The notes under the pieces: model-generated
What the model saw: only the letters and a program-made list of their open reading frames with translations
Databases searched by the model: none
What the model was told of the DNA's origin: nothing
Made by a program: the position numbers and the translations under genes
Shown: piece by piece, positions 4,711 through 43,975 of the stretch
Numbering within the stretch: position 1 is the first letter of the stretch
Layout: each line of letters starts with the position of its first letter
Source: a virus
Virus record (IMG/VR): IMGVR_UViG_3300031999_000053
Span: 1-43,975 of that record
Strand: one strand, 5' to 3'
DNA: 43,975 nt

Positions 4711-4856
4711 TAGTGTAATTTAATTTTTAATATTCGGCGCAGAAGTTCCTATTTTTATATAAATTTGTAGTTTAAACCAAAATAATTAATTTTATTGACA
4801 AAAAGAAATAATTTAACACAAATTTAATAAAACTTTTTATATCTATTTTAATATAA

Positions 4857-4877
4857 TACGCGCGTGCGTGCACGTGT
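4857..4877. other. 21-base perfectly alternating pyrimidine-purine tract
   Basis: TACGCGCGTGCGTGCACGTGT alternates pyrimidine and purine without a break and is very GC-rich in an AT-rich genome. Such tracts can adopt Z-DNA and contain nested palindromes (GTGCAC, CACGTG). It lies in the gene-free stretch 4711-5044 between the divergent gene blocks, 146 bases from the metallopeptidase start and 168 bases from the first rightward gene. Confidence 0.75.
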
Positions 4878-4879
4878 CT

Positions 4880-4905
4880 GACTCAAGATCTATTTTCCTT
4901 GAGTC
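4880..4905. promoter_or_regulatory. Hairpin in the divergent control region
   Basis: GACTCAAG (4880-4887) and CTTGAGTC (4898-4905) form an 8-bp stem with a 10-base loop, immediately after the alternating tract. No long T-run follows on either strand, so it is not a classical terminator. It could be an operator or an RNA leader structure. The remainder of 4711-5044 is AT-rich with no gene that I can see. Confidence 0.45.
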
Positions 4906-5020
4906 TCTAGTCTTTATTATATGGTTACTTGTAAATAAGTTTTGTACTTTAAGTTAAAGTTTTGTTAAATTTTTTAAAAATAAATATTAAAAAATATTTT
5001 TTTATTTCAATTATTTTTAT

Positions 5021-5028
5021 TATATTTG
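5021..5028 (+). promoter_or_regulatory. Bacteroidota-type -7 element (TATATTTG)
   Basis: TATATTTG fits the TAnnTTTG -7 element of the Bacteroidota housekeeping sigma factor. It lies 17 bases upstream of the ATG at 5045, after AT-rich sequence, in the divergent region. A clear -33 element is not obvious. It would drive the rightward early block with a very short leader. Confidence 0.5.
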
Positions 5029-5044
5029 AATTAAATAAAATGAA

Positions 5045-5218
5045 ATGAAATATAGGATAAATGATATAAAACAAACACTAGAAATTGCCACAGATAGTAA
5101 AAAGTTGTTCTTAAGTGGTTATGCGATTATAGATGAAAAAGGACACTGTTTTATTATTGTATATGGAGAAGATAAACGAGATATTATATATGAATATTTA
5201 AATGAATGTAAATTTTGA
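5045..5218 (+). CDS. Small unknown protein, first gene of the rightward block
   Basis: 57 aa (starts MKYRINDIKQTLEIATDSKK, ends YLNECKF) ending in TGA. The ATG is 17 bases after the TATATTTG element. An ATG at 5040 is followed by a stop after two codons, so 5045 is the usable start. The pattern YAIIDEKGHCFIIVYGEDKRD suggests a small beta-hairpin-containing fold. Not recognised. Confidence 0.5.
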   Translation: MKYRINDIKQTLEIATDSKKLFLSGYAIIDEKGHCFIIVYGEDKRDIIYEYLNECKF

Positions 5219-5250
5219 AGAAACTTTGCTCTTAAAAAATATTATAAAAA

Positions 5251-5451
5251 ATGGAAAAATTTAATAAAATAAAAGAAGATATTAAATCACAACTTGATAC
5301 AATTGATTATCAAGGCGATTTAAGTGATATTGGAAATGAAATTGGAATTATATTAGGTCATTATATTCATGAAAATGAATTAGGATGGGAATTAAAAAGT
5401 TTCTTTGATGGTATAAAACATGGAATTTCATTAACAAACAGAACTCATTAA
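5251..5451 (+). CDS. Small unknown protein
   Basis: 66 aa, charged and helical (MEKFNKIKEDIKSQLDTI; IGNEIGIILGHYIHENELGW). It begins 32 bases after the previous stop and ends 2 bases before the next start, so it is part of a rightward operon. Not recognised. Confidence 0.5.
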   Translation: MEKFNKIKEDIKSQLDTIDYQGDLSDIGNEIGIILGHYIHENELGWELKSFFDGIKHGISLTNRTH

Positions 5452-23777: not shown

Positions 23778-24122
23778 ATGATTCATGTTAAAAATAATGA
23801 CTTAAGAAATGAAATCATTAAATGTAAAGAATCTAATGTATTATCAAAAGAAGCATTGGATATGTTTATGTTAATGGCTAAAAAATTTTCTACAAAATTA
23901 AATTATGTTTATCCAGAAGATCGCGAAGATTGTATTGCTTTTGCAATAATGGATTGTTATCAATATTGGAGAGGTTATAATCCTGAAAAATCTCAAAATG
24001 CATTTGCATATTATACTCAAATTATAAAAAATGGATTTGCAAAGGGCTGGCGAAAATTATATGGTAATTTTCCTAAAAGTAAAAAAATATCTACATCAAA
24101 CAATAAGCTTTATAATATTTAA
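23778..24122 (+). CDS. T4 gp55-like late-transcription sigma factor
   Basis: 114 aa (T4 gp55 is 185). YPEDREDCIAFAIMDCYQYW near residues 53-72 and NAFAYYTQIIKNGFAKGWRKLYG near 84-106 match the sigma-region-2-like core of gp55 (short helix, then A-Y-F/Y-T-Q-I...N-x-F/A-x-R). It should direct host RNA polymerase to late promoters; TATAAATA-type motifs precede many structural genes here. It is the first gene after a terminator. The homing endonuclease remnant follows directly, a typical insertion position next to an essential gene. Confidence 0.75.
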   Translation: MIHVKNNDLRNEIIKCKESNVLSKEALDMFMLMAKKFSTKLNYVYPEDREDCIAFAIMDCYQYWRGYNPEKSQNAFAYYTQIIKNGFAKGWRKLYGNFPKSKKISTSNNKLYNI

Positions 24123-24181: not shown

Positions 24182-26041
24182 ATGTCTAAAGATGAATTTA
24201 TTTTATATATTTCAACAAATAATCTAGGTTTTTATAAGACAAGAAAAATTCATATCAAGAAACGATTTCCCGAAATCCTTCAAGAAATTAAAGAATTTTT
24301 ATTAATACACAATTTAACTCCTATTAATTTTAATGATGCTGTACATTACTATATAAATAATTGTATTGTGCAAAATAAATGTTCTTGTGGAAAAATTATA
24401 CACCATGATTCTATGTATTGTTCTAATAAATGTAAAAATGACAATATCGATATAATTTTAACTAAATCTAGATCAACATTATTAAAAAAATACGGTGAAA
24501 ATAGTCCACTTAAAATATCTCAATTTAAGAAAAAATTTGAAGATACATGTTTAAATAAATTTGGAGAAATTCACCCATCAAAAAATAAACAAGTTGCACA
24601 AAAAATAAAAAATACAAATATAAAAACATATAAAGATTCTAATCTACGGAAAAATGTAAGTATTAGAATTAAAAAGGCTTATGAAAAGGATATAGTAGGC
24701 ATAATAAAAAAAAGAAAACAAACAAATTTCAATAAAACGGGGGAATATGTAACATTAACATCAAGTGCTATAAATAATGCTAAAAAAACTCTTATAAAAA
24801 AATATAACACACCAAATCCATTTGCTATACATAAAAATACATATGAATTAGCAAAATTAGGAAGTTTAAAATTTTATAATAATAATGAAAATAAAGAAAA
24901 GGCTATTAAAAAAAGAATAGAGACTATAATTAAAAAATATGGTTCTTTAAAAATAGTGTTTTGTTTAAATGATAATTTTTATCTTTAAATAAATCGCTAT
25001 GCCAATATATTCCATTAAATTCTATTGCAATATGTTTTTCTGGAATATAAATATCGATTTCACTACCCTTAAGTATTTTTTTATTATTTTTTTCACATGA
25101 AATATATGTATTTAACCAGTTAAAAAGTTCTATTTCGGCATTTGATCTCCATTGCACCGGTGGTGAACATATAACACAAGTTATATCATTATGATTCGTT
25201 CTATCTCTTAATAATCGTAATGATATATTATACTCTTGATTACATTTATGACATCTACATTTAACATATCCTAAATTATTATATTCAATCTTTATAATGT
25301 TATCAATGACACCAGATTCTTTTAAATTTTTTAATATTCTTTCCTTTTTATTATTAAAAACTATTTCATTCATTTTATCTAAAAAATCTAGATATTCATC
25401 TTATTCATATATGGGAAGATTTATGGAATAATAAAAAAGATATTATAAAAGGAAGAATTTTATCAAAACTTAGAATTAATCAAATATCTATAGGTGCGCG
25501 AAAGTGTAAGATACAAGAAATTTCATCGTTTACAGCAAATGAATTTTATGAACTCAATCATTTACAGGGTAAAACAAAAGGCTTTAGGTATATTGCTTTA
25601 TATTTTAATAATGAAATTATTTCATGTATAAGTATTGGAAAAAGAAAATTAGGAAAAAATAAAAATATTAATACATTTGAAATTTTAAGATTTTGTAATA
25701 AAATAGGAATTAACTGTATTGGTGCGTTTTCAAAATTATTTAATTATATTATTAAAAATTATCCAGCTAAATATATTTCATATGCGGATTTATGTTGGGG
25801 TGAAGGAAATGTATATGAATATTCAAATTTTAAGTTGAAAGAATATTCTAAACCTAATTATTGGTATTTTTTAGAAAATAAAAGATATCATAGATATACA
25901 TTTAATAAACAAAAACTTATAAAAATGGGATATGATAAAAATAAAACTGAATTTCAAATCATGAATGAAATTAAAGCATTTAGAGTATATGACTGTGGAA
26001 ATGCTATATGGGAATATATAATAAATAAAAATGGCTTTTAA
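24182..26041 (+). pseudogene. Hef-like homing endonuclease scrambled by an internal inversion
   Basis: Residues 1-252 (24182-24940) carry a CSCGK...YCSNKC zinc motif and repeated KKYGxxxP / NTxxKTYG-type units typical of phage Hef-like endonucleases. The nuclease core (EIDIYIPEKHIAIEFNGIYWHSDLF) lies on the opposite strand in 24942-25387. The C-terminal part (LDIHLIHIWEDLW to stop at 26041) is again on the plus strand, open over 218 codons with no start codon. Re-inverting 24942-25387 gives one open frame of 619 codons across both joints. The gene is therefore broken as sequenced. Confidence 0.85.
24942..25387 (-). other. 446-bp inverted segment within the homing endonuclease gene
   Basis: The minus strand of this segment encodes the missing middle (FLDKMNEIVFNNKKER... 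to ...NKTLFLKN). With breakpoints near 24941/24942 and 25387/25388, both joints are in frame (..KKY-D-FLDKM.. and ..NKTLFLKN-LDIHLIHIWED..). The eight residues between NKT and HLIHI match the usual family spacing. An alternative crossover in the 7-bp inverted repeat AAATAGT (24951) / ACTATTT (25360) is also in frame but adds four residues there. TAAAAAAT flanks both breakpoints. Confidence 0.8.
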
Positions 26042-26079
26042 CGAATCATACAAACGATGGAAATATACCAAAAAGTAAA
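26032..26079 (+). pseudogene. Short frame resembling the N-terminus of the following gp4-like gene
   Basis: ATG at 26032 reads MAFNESYKRWKYTKK then TAA; after the stop the frame continues KSKYLQLSESAKNKKK to TGA. The start closely resembles MSYNQAYKLW of the gp4-like protein beginning at 26126 (M-x-[FY]-N-[EQ]-[SA]-Y-K-x-W). It overlaps the end of the homing endonuclease gene. It could be a duplicated gene start left by endonuclease insertion, or the remnant of a separate small gene. Confidence 0.35.
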
Positions 26080-26125
26080 AAAGTAAGTATCTCCAGTTGT
26101 CCGAATCAGCTAAAAATAAAAAAAA

Positions 26126-26740
26126 ATGAGTTATAATCAAGCGTATAAATTATGGCATGTGCCAAACAAAAATGTTTTTAATGAAAATGGAAACCTTAAG
26201 AAAGGCCAAACACTTCAAGGATATTATAGAATACAAAACCCACAAAAATATGTAGGTGATCCAAATCTTGTAATATTTCGTTCATCTTGGGAGAGCAGTT
26301 TTTGTAAATGGTGTGACTTTTCGCCTTCAATACTTCGTTGGAGTAGTGAACCTGTAAAAGTTCCATATTATGATCGTATATCTAAACTTAAAGAATGTAA
26401 AAAAAATGGGTTAGATCCAAATAATCCAAAAAATTGGGTAGTGAAGAACTACAATGTTGATTATTGGATCGAAGTAAATAAAGGTGATGGAATTACACAA
26501 AAAATGTTTATAGAAATTAAACCATCTAATAAATTAAAAAAACCTATACCTCCAGATGCAAATGCTCCATTAAGAGAACAAAGAAGATTTAACAGTGAAG
26601 CAAAAGATTATTTATTAAATGAAGCAAAATGGGCTGCTATGACAGCATGGGCTGAAAAAAATCACACTAAATTTTACGTATTCACGGAAATCACACTTAA
26701 ACATTTGATCGGGAGGTTCTGGCAAGGAAATAATAATTAA
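26126..26740 (+). CDS. T4 gp4-like head-completion nuclease
   Basis: 204 aa. YRIQNPQKYVGDPNLVIFRS then SWESSFCKWCDFSPSILRWSSEPVKVPY (residues ~54-81) is the hallmark of T4 gp4 (head completion). The nuclease triad is visible as E56, D112 (YNVDYWIEV) and E130-x-K132 (FIEIKPSNK), as in TnsA-like endonucleases. A ~30-residue N-terminal extension precedes the conserved part. gp4 acts in finishing packaged heads. It lies two genes upstream of the portal, so it belongs to the head-assembly block. Confidence 0.8.
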   Translation: MSYNQAYKLWHVPNKNVFNENGNLKKGQTLQGYYRIQNPQKYVGDPNLVIFRSSWESSFCKWCDFSPSILRWSSEPVKVPYYDRISKLKECKKNGLDPNNPKNWVVKNYNVDYWIEVNKGDGITQKMFIEIKPSNKLKKPIPPDANAPLREQRRFNSEAKDYLLNEAKWAAMTAWAEKNHTKFYVFTEITLKHLIGRFWQGNNN

Positions 26741-29784: not shown

Positions 29785-30090
29785 GAGTGCTGAAATGCTA
29801 GTTATAGAGTAGATATTTTGAGGTGCTTTTTTAATGATAACACTCCTATAATTAAAATAGGAAAAAGATATTAAAACGTTCTTTGTAAAAAGATTATCTA
29901 TGAGATATAGTTGTATGGACGAGATTTCGATATCTCCACCTCCACATGTATAAATAAAACGGGGGTGCATGGATTTGACAGCGACGAATAAGTAATAGAG
30001 ATTAGTTTTAATAACGCAATAAACGGCGAAAATGTTTATAATGAGTATCGTATTGCAGCTTAAGAAGTTCGCATACGACAAACAACAAAA
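29785..30090 (+). ncRNA. ssrA: Circularly permuted (two-piece) tmRNA
   Basis: Acceptor piece first: conserved GGAC (29917-29920), T-arm GAGAT TTCGAT ATCTC (29921-29936), acceptor strand CACCTCC (29937-29943) and A at 29944 (CCA would be added). About 16 bases later the coding piece starts with GGGGGTG (29961-29967), then GGATTTGACAGCG. GGGGGTG/CACCTCC pair over 7 bp with the G3:U70 alanine identity pair. The tag ORF runs from GGC at 30025: GENVYNEYRIAA then TAA (30061-30063). A helix-5-like stem TCGTAT (30048)/ATACGA (30073) spans the tag end. The acceptor piece 5' end is uncertain: CCTAT/ATAGG and GAGTG (29785)/CACTC (29841) pairings suggest it lies between about 29785 and 29841. It rescues stalled ribosomes and tags proteins for degradation. 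Confidence 0.9.
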
Positions 30091-30117
30091 AAGTTAGCCA
30101 ATTGGCTAACTTTTTTT
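30087..30117 (+). terminator. Rho-independent terminator of the tmRNA
   Basis: AAAAAAGTTAGCC AATT GGCTAACTTTTTTT is a perfect palindrome with flanking A- and T-runs; the base-paired GC core is GTTAGCC/GGCTAAC. It ends the coding piece of the tmRNA. The T-run runs straight into the ATG of the GH16 gene. Confidence 0.9.
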
Positions 30118-31041
30118 ATGAACATATATAAAAATTTTATGAAACAAATTTATTTAAGAAGTGTTCCTGCTAGCGATTTTTTTATAAATATATTTTATAA
30201 AATTAGATTCTGGTTTTATAGAAATTTTTGGAAAGATAAATTATCTCATTTTTCTAATGAATTAAAAGATAAATGGGAATTAACATTTAAAGATGATTTT
30301 CTTGAAAAATCTTGGGGAAATAGTGATGATAATAAAAAATGGATAGTTGGCGAATGTTGGGGTTGGTTTTACCCAGATACTATTTCTTATTTTGGTCCTC
30401 CAGAAACAACAAATGAACCGTATAGTAATGCTAAATTTACTGTTAAATATAATCCAAAAACTTTTCCTGATGATTTTAAAACTGGAAAACCTATAACAAT
30501 TCCATTTGAGGTTAGCCTTTTATCTTCGTGCCTTTCTTTTAAACAACAATACGGAAGATTTGAATGTTGTTGTACAATTCCACATGATAAAGGAGTATTT
30601 CCAGCTTTTTGGATGTGGGGATCAACTTGGCCACCAGAAATAGATGTATTTGAATTTGATGGTGGTATAGATGGAGAAACTGCTGGTAGACAAAAACCTG
30701 ATCTTCATTATGGAGTAGTTGAAGATGGAACTAAAAGAAGTATACCGAGATGGCCAATTAGAGTTGAAAGAAAAAATGAAAAGATAAGACACTGTGATAA
30801 ATTTCATGAATTTGCAGTAGAATGGACTCCAGATAAAATTAAATTTATAACTAATGGCATAACTGTATATAGATTTACTGGGAAAAAAGAATTAGAATGG
30901 TTTAATAAAGATACAACTAAAATGTGGATAGTAATTAATCATGGTATAAATATGAATAACATTCTACATGTTAAATCTGACGAAAAAAATTATTATTCAG
31001 AATTTTTAGTAGATTATATAAGAGCATATAAAAAAATATAA
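30118..31041 (+). CDS. Glycoside hydrolase family 16 enzyme
   Basis: 307 aa. WPPEIDVFEF holds the GH16 retaining signature E-I-D-x-x-E (E174 nucleophile, D176, E179 acid/base). The surroundings fit: KWIVGECWGWFYPDTIS, YGRFECCCTIPHDKGVFPAFWMWGS, FHEFAVEWTPDKIKFITNG and MWIVINHGI. GH16 enzymes cleave beta-1,3/1,4-glucans and galactans such as laminarin, agar or carrageenan. No signal peptide; residues 18-38 are aromatic and hydrophobic. The ATG directly follows the tmRNA terminator, so the real start may be the ATG at 30136. It could be a virion depolymerase or be released at lysis. Confidence 0.85.
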   Translation: MNIYKNFMKQIYLRSVPASDFFINIFYKIRFWFYRNFWKDKLSHFSNELKDKWELTFKDDFLEKSWGNSDDNKKWIVGECWGWFYPDTISYFGPPETTNEPYSNAKFTVKYNPKTFPDDFKTGKPITIPFEVSLLSSCLSFKQQYGRFECCCTIPHDKGVFPAFWMWGSTWPPEIDVFEFDGGIDGETAGRQKPDLHYGVVEDGTKRSIPRWPIRVERKNEKIRHCDKFHEFAVEWTPDKIKFITNGITVYRFTGKKELEWFNKDTTKMWIVINHGINMNNILHVKSDEKNYYSEFLVDYIRAYKKI

Positions 31042-40111: not shown

Positions 40112-40453
40112 ATGAAAGCAAAATTAGTTAGAGAAAGTTTAAATGAATCTGTATCCAGTTCTGTGGAATCTGTATCCAGTTCTGTGGTTAATCCTATTAT
40201 TATGCATTTAGCTGGAATTTCTGATAAAGATATTCAAAAAGTAATGCATATTGTTGATACTATTGCACAAAGAGTAGGAGATAGTGGATCTTGTGTGTTG
40301 GGCAGTGGTCTTAAACTAAATGGGCGTGTTTTCATTGAACCATATTCTCAGGGTAGTTTGGGTCCTGAAGAAATTTATCATGAAGTGAAAAAATATTTAA
40401 ATTATAAATATCCTCACATTAAATTTGATATTGAATATGGGAATATGGACTAA
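40112..40453 (+). CDS. Putative capsid-internal protein with LNE targeting peptide
   Basis: 113 aa starting MKAKLVRESLNE-S, nearly the same leader as the gene at 31082, followed by a duplicated Ser/Val-rich stretch (SVSSSVESVSSSV). The rest is a small alpha/beta domain (DIQKVMHIVDTIAQRVGDSG, GRVFIEPYSQGSLGPEEIYH). Packaging and cleavage after LNE are inferred from T4 rules. Confidence 0.5.
   Translation: MKAKLVRESLNESVSSSVESVSSSVVNPIIMHLAGISDKDIQKVMHIVDTIAQRVGDSGSCVLGSGLKLNGRVFIEPYSQGSLGPEEIYHEVKKYLNYKYPHIKFDIEYGNMD
40145..40186 (+). repeat. 21-bp tandem repeat (2 copies)
   Basis: GAATCTGTATCCAGTTCTGTG occurs twice in tandem (40145-40165 and 40166-40186), directly after the LNE leader codons, encoding ESVSSSV twice. 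It lengthens the linker behind the putative cleavage site. Confidence 0.9.
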
Positions 40454-40470
40454 AATATGTAAAATAAAAT

Positions 40471-41262
40471 ATGAAAAATAAAAGACAATTTTTAAGAGAG
40501 GGGTATGGAAGCGGTTTTTCTTTTACTGGCGGTCGTATAGGTGGTATGGGTGGCACATCCAGAAGTGGCTTTGGTGGCGCTGGAAATTTAGGTGGTCCTA
40601 ATATGATGTACACTTATGAGATCAAACCTCTTAATCATTCATTGGAACAAAAACCTAATATGACTGCAAATAGTCAAATTGTGCAGATACAAATAGGTTC
40701 TAAAATATCCGGAGAACCTATAAGATCAAATGCTACCCCTAATAAAAAAATAATTAAAGGAATTATTCAAAAAATTGTAAAAACAAATGATAATTCAATA
40801 AAATATTATATTATACGAGATGAAACAACACAAGAACAAGTTAAAATAGATCCCTTAACTGTTAAATTAATTATTCATGAACCTATTGAATATTATAATG
40901 ATAATACTGATAATATTCCAAGTAGAAGAAAACAAAAAATTAAAGCTGTTATAACAGAAAGTAAATTAGTTCCAGAATCATTAAAAGAATCTTTAAACGA
41001 ACAAATAATCAATAATAGATTAAATATATTTTTTAATAAAGATGATTCATATGATGCAATACGAAACTTTATATTATATAATTTTTATTGGAATCCTGGA
41101 ACATATAAAATTTATAATTTTAAAAAAATTGGAACTATTAGTAATAAATATTCTATTGCTGGAAAATTAATAAATAAACCACACATACAAATGATTTTAC
41201 AAGTACAAAGAAATATAAATGATTTTAAGTCTCTTAAAGAATCTTCATTAGATTTAAATTAA
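40471..41262 (+). CDS. Putative capsid-internal/structural protein with Gly-rich N-terminus
   Basis: 263 aa. It starts MKNKRQFLRE-G (again L-x-E before a small residue), then a Gly-rich stretch (~12-45, GGRIGGMGGTSRSGFGGAGN). A middle beta domain (~85-140) follows: IIKGIIQKIVKTNDNSIKYY and IIRDETTQEQVKIDPLTVKL. An internal SLKESLNE-Q near 175 could be a second processing site before a C-terminal domain. It overlaps the convergent glycosyltransferase gene by 4 bases. Family unknown. Confidence 0.5.
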   Translation: MKNKRQFLREGYGSGFSFTGGRIGGMGGTSRSGFGGAGNLGGPNMMYTYEIKPLNHSLEQKPNMTANSQIVQIQIGSKISGEPIRSNATPNKKIIKGIIQKIVKTNDNSIKYYIIRDETTQEQVKIDPLTVKLIIHEPIEYYNDNTDNIPSRRKQKIKAVITESKLVPESLKESLNEQIINNRLNIFFNKDDSYDAIRNFILYNFYWNPGTYKIYNFKKIGTISNKYSIAGKLINKPHIQMILQVQRNINDFKSLKESSLDLN

Positions 41263-42092
41263 AGAGAACTTAAGTTCTTAGTTTCCCATGGAACTATAAA
41301 TTTGTGAATTTTTTTATCAAGTTTTTTTACGTACACTTCATTTGAAGGGACGTTGAACAACATTATTGCTTTATCTCCTTCTTTCCAATTATTAAATTGA
41401 TCAACACATTTCTCAATTAACTCTTGATTAAAGTGATCTTTAGCACTCCAATTTTCTAATTTCTTTCTTATATCTTTTCTAATCCACGCTCCATGCGCCA
41501 TTCTAATTACTTCATCTGGAAACAGATAGGTACCTATATTCATTGGGTTAAAGATCCTTCTTGTTGGATCTGTGGGTCCTGGAGCTGGTCCATTAAAGGT
41601 ATATGTAAAATAAGTTGAACATATTCCAGGAACAAATGGCCTGAATGGATAAACTAAATAATGTTCAAAATCACGATAGTAATTAATATAACTCCAATAT
41701 GTAATTGGCCAGCCATTTTTATTAATTTGATTTTTAGCTTCTTTTAATTGATCTACATCATAAAATTCATCTGCATCTGCAGATATTACATGAGAAAACC
41801 CCTTTTCTTTCATTAAATTAATACCTATATTTCTTTTATTAGTTTCTTGCTCTCTGTGAGGCATATTATAATCTGGCTTAAATTCTAATAATTCATCTAT
41901 TAATCCTATTGATTTAAGACGATGAAGTTCTTCCATATCTTGAGGATCTATTGGATTACCACAATATGATTTAGCTTGCCAAATCGCTGTAATATAATTT
42001 AATTCGTTTCGTATTTCGCTAAGTATTGATTCAAGTAATTCACTTGCATCAAATGAATTTATATTATAAGCTAATGAACGTATTTTTCCCAT
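41259..42092 (-). CDS. GT-A-type glycosyltransferase
   Basis: 277 aa. GFSHVISADADEFYDVDQLK holds the D-x-D metal/sugar-nucleotide motif (D106, D108) in the DADEF form typical of family 2/GT-A-like enzymes that start from short glycosyl donors. MPHREQETNKRNIGINLMKE just before it is the usual nucleotide-binding helix. RMAHGAWIRKDIRKKL near 200 may hold an acceptor-side His. It could glycosylate phage DNA, virion proteins or host glycans. Transcribed with thyX (16-base gap). Confidence 0.7.
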   Translation of the reverse strand: MGKIRSLAYNINSFDASELLESILSEIRNELNYITAIWQAKSYCGNPIDPQDMEELHRLKSIGLIDELLEFKPDYNMPHREQETNKRNIGINLMKEKGFSHVISADADEFYDVDQLKEAKNQINKNGWPITYWSYINYYRDFEHYLVYPFRPFVPGICSTYFTYTFNGPAPGPTDPTRRIFNPMNIGTYLFPDEVIRMAHGAWIRKDIRKKLENWSAKDHFNQELIEKCVDQFNNWKEGDKAIMLFNVPSNEVYVKKLDKKIHKFIVPWETKNLSSL

Positions 42093-42107
42093 AATTTAAA
42101 TTTTTTT

Positions 42108-42773
42108 TTATTTATTTATATCATCAAAAAGTACAGGAATTTTTAATTTAAATTCTTTTAATAAAGGAATTGTTAACTCTCTCATTTGTGGATGAGCAAC
42201 TATACTAGTTCTTAATGTAAAAAAATGTCGCCATTCACGTAAATTCATTTTAACATTAATTTCTGTTTTTAAAGAATTTGGAAGAACTGTTCGAGCTTGT
42301 TGAGGTTGCCAACCTAAATTAATTAATTCATTATAATATGTTTCACTCATTATCATTGCTTTATACCACGTATTTTCAGCTGGTGTAAAATCAGATTGTT
42401 CACTTTTACTTCTCCATTCTCCATCATAAATGTGATCAGACCAACAAGGAATTATAAAAGTTAATTGATTATTAAATTTATCTTTTGAATAATTACAATA
42501 TCTTGTGCTTTCTTGAGCATAAGATGCAATACGATGTCTAACTATTTCATGAGAAACTCCTCTATCACAAATAAATTTAACAATGATATCAAAGAATTCT
42601 AACATGGCTTCATGTTTTTTTGCAAGTAAATTTTTAATCATTTGCTCAGCAGATTCATTAGTTATTTTGTCTTCAGATTTATAACAAGTTCTAGCAACTT
42701 TCTCAATTATTTTAAGAATTTCTTTTCCATCAATTGCTGTTAAAATTTTAGTATAAGGTTTAATTAGTTTCAT
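42108..42773 (-). CDS. thyX: Flavin-dependent thymidylate synthase ThyX
   Basis: 221 aa. RHRIASYAQESTRY at 79-92 is the ThyX signature RHR-x7-S, preceded by FICDRGVSHEIV. NYSKDKFNNQLTFIIP and later LGWQPQQARTVLPNSLKTEI and LREWRHFFTLRT also match the family. It makes dTMP from dUMP with FAD, NADPH and methylene-THF. The thymidylate kinase at 32653 provides the next step. Confidence 0.92.
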   Translation of the reverse strand: MKLIKPYTKILTAIDGKEILKIIEKVARTCYKSEDKITNESAEQMIKNLLAKKHEAMLEFFDIIVKFICDRGVSHEIVRHRIASYAQESTRYCNYSKDKFNNQLTFIIPCWSDHIYDGEWRSKSEQSDFTPAENTWYKAMIMSETYYNELINLGWQPQQARTVLPNSLKTEINVKMNLREWRHFFTLRTSIVAHPQMRELTIPLLKEFKLKIPVLFDDINK

Positions 42774-42844
42774 ATAATCATGTATTTTTAGATATTATAT
42801 TAACACAATTATAAGAGTTTTAAGAAATTGTTAAAAGATTAAAA

Positions 42845-43975
42845 TTATTTTTCTTTGATTTCAAGTTTTCCGCCCGTGTTACCATCATAAAAGGTGAAAT
42901 TGAACTCACCATTTCTCGATCCAACAAGTTTTTGAGCTATTTTAGTAGCTATCATTTCTGCAACATTATTCCAATCTGTACCACCAGTTGTGACTGCAGT
43001 AGGAGTTCCGGAAGTAGGTTTAATTTCAACACCTTTGGTTGTTACTGCATGTTGTGCAGTAACAGTTGCGAGTTTTTGAAGATTATCTGTGTTTAAACCA
43101 CCCATATTAGTAACTAATAAACCTACATTAGTTGCAAGTAATCCCATTGAGTTGGCTAATTTTTCAAGTCCTTGTTGAGATTTAGCCAAAGTATCAAATT
43201 GTCCAATTATATCACTAAAACTACCTAATTTTTTTCCAATTTCTTCAGAAGTTTTATCCAAATTTTTACCAGCTAATTCACTATTTAACGCATTTATAAA
43301 TGTACTTATTCCTGCAACCATGTTTTTAGCCACAGTTGAAACTGGAATACCTGGGCCTGGAAGTATTTTTCCATCTTTATCTTTTTTAGGAATAGTATTA
43401 TCTGCACCGTATTCTGAATAAGTAGCTAATAAATCATTAAAAGTTGTAATTCCTGTAAGAATTCCAGGCTTATCTGCAGCAAACCATCCACCAATAGCGC
43501 TTCGTTTCTTACCCATTAAAGATTCATTAAAAGCATTCATTTTGTTTCCTACCATACCACCTAATTCAAAACCGGTGGCAACCTTAGCCATTTGTGATAC
43601 AAACTCGGAAATAGTTCCAGTTAAATTTGTTACTACAGTATCTATTGCTACTGAAAAACCTGGTCTAGTTATATTACCTTTATCATCTACGACTGCTGGT
43701 ACGTATATTTCTTTTTTCTCTCCATATTTAGCAAATAATTCTAATGTATTAGCAAATTGGCTTACACCCGAAAGAATACCTTTTTCTCCTCCTAATGATT
43801 TATTCATTCTAATCATTTTTCTACCTATAGGTCCACCGAGTTCAAATAATGGCGCCATAACTGCCATCGCGTTTACAAATTGTCCAAACGTATCAACAAT
43901 ATGTTGTGTGACTGTTCTGATAGGAACGTTTTCAGCTTCTTTAACTATTTTACCATTTTCATCTAATACTGCTGG
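42845..43975 (-). CDS. Repeat-built tape-measure-like protein (5' end outside window)
   Basis: Open from the window edge (frame reads PAVLDENGKIVKEAENVPIR upstream of the ATG at 43867) to the stop at 42845; 376 codons are visible. At least three ~95-110-residue repeats share [IV]P-x-x-D-x-x-G-K/N-I, a [PV]-x-x-T-V helix, FELGG-x-[IV]G-x-KM-x-x-x-N-x-SL and GILxGIxxF. The C-terminal ~130 residues have Leu/Ala helices (LEKLANSMGLLATNVGLLVT), then a small beta domain (GEFNFTFYDGNTGGKLEI). The pattern suits a tail tape-measure or similar elongated virion protein; not certain. Confidence 0.5.
   Translation of the reverse strand, partial: PAVLDENGKIVKEAENVPIRTVTQHIVDTFGQFVNAMAVMAPLFELGGPIGRKMIRMNKSLGGEKGILSGVSQFANTLELFAKYGEKKEIYVPAVVDDKGNITRPGFSVAIDTVVTNLTGTISEFVSQMAKVATGFELGGMVGNKMNAFNESLMGKKRSAIGGWFAADKPGILTGITTFNDLLATYSEYGADNTIPKKDKDGKILPGPGIPVSTVAKNMVAGISTFINALNSELAGKNLDKTSEEIGKKLGSFSDIIGQFDTLAKSQQGLEKLANSMGLLATNVGLLVTNMGGLNTDNLQKLATVTAQHAVTTKGVEIKPTSGTPTAVTTGGTDWNNVAEMIATKIAQKLVGSRNGEFNFTFYDGNTGGKLEIKEK

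Follow-up and report, generated by a model that had tools for sequence, protein, structure and literature searches.

A putative homing endonuclease gene apparently broken by a clean, recent inversion in a T4-like bacterial virus

Homing endonuclease genes are thought to go through gain, fixation and decay. The closest described counterparts of the gene considered here are the Hef-like or EDxHD endonucleases (phrog_3339, phrog_559; I-Bth0305I). Iyer and colleagues (PMC7824862) also describe Mom domains joined to nuclease domains in jumbo phages; they credit PA5oct with five momylating enzymes and read the fusions as restriction-modification, not homing. As for rearrangements, the ICP1 homing endonuclease gene gp174 carries a 228-bp in-frame deletion between degenerate repeats (PMC10448857). 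Primate microinversions of 17-33 nt, with inverted repeats of at least 3 nt, have been modeled as products of microhomology-mediated break-induced replication (PMC8755829), and invertons are invertible segments driven by recombinases (PMC11892184).

In the window (the whole 43,975-nucleotide stretch of viral DNA analyzed, IMGVR_UViG_3300031999_000053), a single Hef-like homing endonuclease gene is divided into three pieces at 24182-26041, collinear with intact orthologues. It resembles the Hef-like/EDxHD endonucleases in that an orthologue (L007) matches the family over its whole length and the gene stands free between essential genes, at a site that is occupied in some relatives and empty in others. 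It differs from them in that its core is inverted and an intact product appears impossible; homing and cleavage are putative. With the jumbo-phage fusions it has in common the predicted C-terminal fold of the L007 protein, Pfam Mom matches in two of 13 relatives and an overlap with the PA5oct genes, but DNA modification is a prediction for the window. The ICP1 gp174 rearrangement likewise lies inside a phage homing endonuclease gene, yet that deletion keeps the frame, whereas the present inversion breaks it. The primate microinversions share a clean inversion edged by a very short inverted repeat; theirs span 17-33 nt, in contrast to 430-438 bp here, in a phage. As in invertons, the segment has been turned around at its own location and both orientations are hinted at, but here there is no long repeat, no recombinase in the fragments searched and only one lineage.

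A gene in three pieces and its intact relatives

The pieces, and the open reading frames that a program delimits among them, are:

24182..24945, plus strand: N-terminal part of the endonuclease gene, DUF7487 region (Pfam DUF7487, E 4.5e-13), aligning with L007 residues 1-255
24182-24988, plus strand: N-terminal ORF in the inverted state, 268 aa, its stop ending at 24988
24946..25383, minus strand: inverted segment with a Cys-rich stretch and most of the nuclease core (EID...EFNGIYWHSD; phrog_3339, E 1.4e-21)
24930-25373, minus strand: mechanically called ORF, opening with ATG, 147 aa
25384..26041, plus strand: C-terminal part, comprising the final strand and helix of the nuclease plus a Mom/GNAT-like domain (phrog_3339, E 8.3e-68)

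The three parts match the PHROG homing endonuclease profile phrog_3339 consecutively, at profile positions 44-209 (N-terminal part, plus strand), 216-323 (core, minus strand) and 327-533 (C-terminal part, plus strand). This order, together with the single-frame orthologues, agrees with the initial annotation, which had placed the N- and C-terminal parts on the plus strand and the nuclease core on the minus strand. Its report that flipping 24942-25387 yields one frame of 619 codons was reproduced, as was the lack of frame damage: no stop or frameshift is present in any of the three pieces. However, 829 out of 5,600 tested pairs of endpoints (70 x 80) likewise leave the frame open, so that the open frame alone is weak proof and homology to relatives has to decide.

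At the same site, the gene is present as one collinear frame in L007 (617 aa), L017 (614 aa) and L022 (612 aa). In L006/L007 (two contigs from samples 3300032053 and 3300031707, 99.9% identical over 3,934 bases), L017 and L022, the intact gene has the gp55 late sigma factor and the head-closure protein as neighbors; L022 has an extra 131-aa ORF between the endonuclease gene and head closure. The window pieces tile in order on the L007 and L017 proteins, with the inverted segment in frame on the minus strand and covering L007 residues ~257-402. The re-inverted protein is 66% identical to that of L007 and 59% identical to that of L017. No relative examined is split in this way apart from one near-identical contig (L005), and the minus-strand part belongs to the same frame in the orthologues. 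The collinear intact genes at the same site and the inverted right junction of the second contig (see below) support the view that a homing endonuclease gene was broken by a clean and apparently recent inversion.

The flanking genes are:

23778..24122, plus strand: gp55-like late sigma factor, 114 aa (phrog_234, E 5e-15), adjoining the endonuclease gene in L007, L017 and L022
L007 3375-3722, L017 7562-7909, L022 3600-3947: gp55-like gene in the relatives
26126..26740, plus strand: head-closure protein with a TnsA-like nuclease fold (phrog_218, E 2.7e-36; Pfam PF08722, E 1e-13)

We surveyed 48 head-closure loci, the five most distant of which had no coordinates and gave no match, and found gp55 upstream of head closure in 36. 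The site is empty in 26 of these 36, with gp55 and head closure 3-46 bases apart. Five, including the near-identical phages L006 and L116, carry a collinear endonuclease gene between the two, one (L144) has a decayed copy, a C-terminal remnant at ~2080-2540 that contains a stop, and four hold another insert of 962-1,578 bases. The 12 loci in which gp55 was not found comprise L108 (the scrambled contig of L005), L149, which has only the C-terminal part, at the contig start, L137, L145 to L148 and the five distant ones. Presence, absence and decay of this kind fit the gain and loss of a mobile gene.

A second set, overlapping in part with the first, comprised 89 loci with 114 matches to the C-terminal domain. 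The core lies in the same ORF in 108 of these matches, is not nearby in five (three cut by the locus end) and is on the opposite strand in one, L005's own contig. Neither the 89 C-domain loci nor the 48 head-closure loci held any further scrambled copy; the C-domain set includes the best 80 of 503 loci by E-value, a choice that favors unbroken genes, so that scrambled copies may be under-sampled. In L006, a second endonuclease of the same kind (4800-5440, with a 499-aa open frame) lies further downstream of head closure.

Breakpoints and a second contig

Comparison with the intact relatives, which the initial annotation had recommended, fixed the breakpoints at a 4-bp inverted repeat, where the strand changes in blastn of the window against L006/L007 (~24946-24949 and ~25380-25383):

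24946..24949, plus strand: left arm of the repeat, TTTA
25380..25383, plus strand: right arm of the repeat, TAAA

The flipped segment thus spans 438 bp including the repeats, or 430 bp between them. A precise inversion of 446 bp (24942-25387) had been proposed originally; the inversion holds, but each endpoint had been set 4 bp too far out. Re-inversion at the 4-bp repeat gives KKYGSLDKMNE, where L007 has SKYGSLDKMNE, while re-inversion at 24942/25387 gives KKYDFLDKMNE; the right joint is identical under either choice (NKTLFLKNLDIHLIHIW). Both joints fit L007 once re-inverted, and in the window both junctions are clean and the flanks continue without loss. An inverted repeat of 4 bp or longer is present at 5% of random placements, so the microhomology is only suggestive.

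A 7-bp inverted repeat, AAATAGT/ACTATTT, does lie inside both ends as first described (24951-24957 and 25360-25366), but it has no bearing on the breakpoints: when 438-bp segments are placed at random in this gene, 16% carry a repeat of 7 bp on the inner side of each end, no more than 25 nt away. As a recombination site it was rejected, as a flip at this repeat would remove the conserved DKMNE and insert residues at the opposite joint. In the region, 268 inverted-repeat pairs were found, which is not surprising at a G+C content of 21%. None of the 25 pairs listed is a longer repeat with arms on both breakpoints, and the inverted repeats near the breakpoints do not exceed chance, with 66% of random placements scoring at least as high.

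The second contig, IMGVR_UViG_3300032053_010508 (L005; L018 denotes the whole contig), matches the window from 24943 on with 99.95% identity over 6,096 bases, inverted right junction included. Compared directly, window and L018 show three mismatches up to 40,166 (one lies at the junction itself) and diverge beyond, which marks L005/L018 as a different strain; blastn over 18,589 bases gave 125 mismatches and one gap. The left flank is absent from L005, so that the inverted left junction, and hence the full inverted arrangement, is seen in the window only. A pattern search for the left flank elsewhere returned 0 matches. A search with the N-terminal protein likewise found 0 relatives, but its patterns missed even L007 and L017, making this a weak negative. 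A pattern search for the inverted segment found it, besides the window, in L005's contig alone among the viral contigs, and a search of the genome contigs gave 0 matches.

The tip of L005 does not fit so simply. Its first 25-29 bases correspond to window 25380-25408 in reverse complement (28/29 identical, 1 mismatch) and join the segment exactly at the 4-bp repeat; read in reverse, they give the ancestral, un-inverted right junction. The layout of the contig is thus right flank (reversed), then segment, then right flank. Either the sample held both orientations and the assembly ran across the segment that they share, or a single snap-back template switch took place at the same repeat; both would produce such a tip.

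Origin and age of the inverted arrangement

At a probability of roughly three in four, we consider that a recent, probably single, microhomology inversion inactivated a mobile gene in a T4-like bacterial virus. A T4-like phage carries a free-standing Hef-like endonuclease gene, flanked by gp55 and the head-closure gene. Within 24946-25383, a break or stalled fork may have been repaired by copying off the opposite strand, primed by microhomology at TTTA/TAAA, resulting in an illegitimate inversion; most likely, such microhomology primed either the repair of a break or template switching during replication. The flip splits the predicted nuclease domain and moves most of the catalytic core to the other strand, truncates the N-terminal frame and leaves the C-terminal part without a usable start, its first in-frame ATG, GTG or TTG not occurring before 25835. 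With the nuclease split, the N-terminal frame truncated and the C-terminal part startless, the gene should be off, and we infer that it is inactive, with no complete nuclease domain in any product. The inversion probably happened once. Against a single completed inversion in a uniform population stands the L005 tip with its ancestral right junction, from which we infer that some templates in one sample keep the ancestral orientation.

The absence of any stop or frameshift from the pieces indicates that the inversion is recent on the substitution scale. About 6.5% of random substitutions would create a stop in the gene, and ~44 substitutions (2.4%) free of selection would be enough to produce a stop with 95% probability. 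Polarized with L007 and L017, changes on the window branch affect 31 codons synonymously and 41 nonsynonymously, as compared to 32 and 31 for L007 (p 0.39) and 51 and 77 for L017 (p 0.66). In the inverted segment alone, the counts are 5 and 13 for the window and 7 and 6 for L007 (p 0.26), a tilt toward nonsynonymous change. Relaxed selection on the window branch is thus not indicated by any significant nonsynonymous excess in these comparisons, a test of little power. Of the three origins first offered for the arrangement (recent, reversible or an assembly artefact), a recent one finds backing in the open pieces and the substitution counts, while an artefact of one contig is made unlikely by the second.

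It is unlikely, if still worth weighing, that the orientation arose in vitro, by snap-back or chimera formation, or was made by the assembler, with the phages carrying an intact gene. A single snap-back at the 4-bp repeat could yield the L005 form, and the inverted left junction is seen in just one contig. The inverted right junction, by contrast, is shared by two contigs that differ beyond 40,166. Moreover, the uninterrupted flanks and clean junctions of the window speak against such an origin, as a single chimera would be expected to give one junction rather than two reciprocal ones at the same repeat. An artefact limited to one contig is thus unlikely.

A reversible switch, in which a host or phage recombinase or frequent template switching flips the segment repeatedly, so that some phages have the endonuclease switched on and others off, appears improbable. 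L005 shows the inverted and, over its first 25-29 bases, the ancestral right junction at the same bases, and all gene pieces stay open, as such a switch would allow. Yet inverton repeats that serve a recombinase are commonly ~10 bp or more, as opposed to 4 bp here, and the inverted repeats nearby do no better than chance. Resolvase and Phage_integrase had no match in the four of four contigs searched, all of them fragments. In addition, no other scrambled copy turned up in the loci screened, the segment was found in no further contig of the collections, and in the L007 model the right breakpoint lies between helix 393-403 and strand 407-412, within the predicted nuclease domain. We regard it as similarly doubtful that the population holds the core of a nuclease-Mom fusion in both orientations, flipping at a 4-bp repeat without a classical invertase site. 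If it did, a selfish DNA-cutting and DNA-modifying gene would have a reversible on/off state; and if both orientations occurred at substantial frequency, inversion at short repeats in phages would be frequent enough to see in one sample.

That the minus-strand ORF is a separate gene in a normal arrangement can practically be dismissed: although it begins with ATG and runs for 147 aa, that ATG is the internal methionine of KMNE, common to L007 and L017, the orthologues are single frames, and core and C-terminal domain share one ORF in nearly all matches surveyed.

The preferred reading, a recent inversion primed by microhomology, is ordinary in kind and unusually clean, with the L005 tip as a loose end. 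It would catch the first step of decay, alongside intact, empty and remnant versions of the site in relatives. A gene caller would list three unrelated ORFs where one gene exists. A literature search on related subjects showed nothing of this kind among the entries listed.

Predicted protein and neighboring features

The L007 orthologue matches phrog_3339 over its whole length (E 1.3e-104). An AlphaFold model of this protein (13 sequences; mean pLDDT 80, pTM 0.52) is predicted to be mostly helical up to residue 277, followed by a small sheet, a nuclease-like region at 337-430 (helix-strand-strand-strand-helix-strand-helix) and a C-terminal domain. A profile of 13 relatives weakly matched PDB entry 3r3p ("Mobile intron protein"; E 0.006, positions 358-430), which we take to be I-Bth0305I. 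I-Bth0305I was not among the fold matches listed for the L007 model, whose listed ranges all lie in the C-terminal domain, and no NCBIfam family was assigned to the endonuclease.

For the C-terminal domain (residues 440-617), Mom of phage Mu (8bv8) was the top Foldseek row (E 2.2e-6), and the L007 model aligned with it over 159 residues (Z 12.8, rmsd 4.3). Many GNAT acetyltransferases score as well as or better than Mom on fold, so the Mom-like fold holds at the superfamily level. Pfam Mom (PF25680) matched two of the 13 relatives (best E 3.7e-8), with no match in L007 and none at E 0.1 in the C-terminal piece of the window. Nuclease and possible DNA modification activities may thus be combined in one protein, as judged from the model. 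PA5oct matches the C-terminal part of the window at five places among the matches listed, the best of them annotated as a Hef-like homing endonuclease. The overlap between these five places and the five momylating enzymes, as described in PMC7824862, suggests that homing endonuclease and restriction-modification-like fusion may be two names for the same genes.

The gp55-like factor is short in the window and its relatives (114-115 aa) and ends in KLYNI, IYNI or IYSL. By comparison with T4 gp55, this ending may be a minimal clamp-binding tail. Three-frame translation beside relatives with an empty site revealed an apparent scar behind the endonuclease gene:

26031..26125, plus strand: partial second head-closure start (MAFNESYKRWK) and second gp55-like end (GNIPKSKKVSIS)

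This stretch is probably the scar of an earlier homing event or illegitimate insertion.

Near its right end, the window has ~280 bases (43532-43813) without counterpart in the blastn match to L018. The two contigs are near-identical for 15 kb and then diverge abruptly (window 40167-43975), a pattern of strain mosaicism. Downstream of the head-closure gene, the window also contains:

29892-30063 (ARAGORN 29853-30154), plus strand: permuted tmRNA (Rfam RF04321, 55.2 bits, gathering 47, E 5.1e-8)

Its tag is GENVYNEYRIAA; the permuted tmRNA is likewise present in L018 and absent from the L017 and L022 stretches. Directly behind it, at window 30087-30116, lies a perfect 30-base palindrome, detected as a self-complementary match to L005, which is possibly a terminator.
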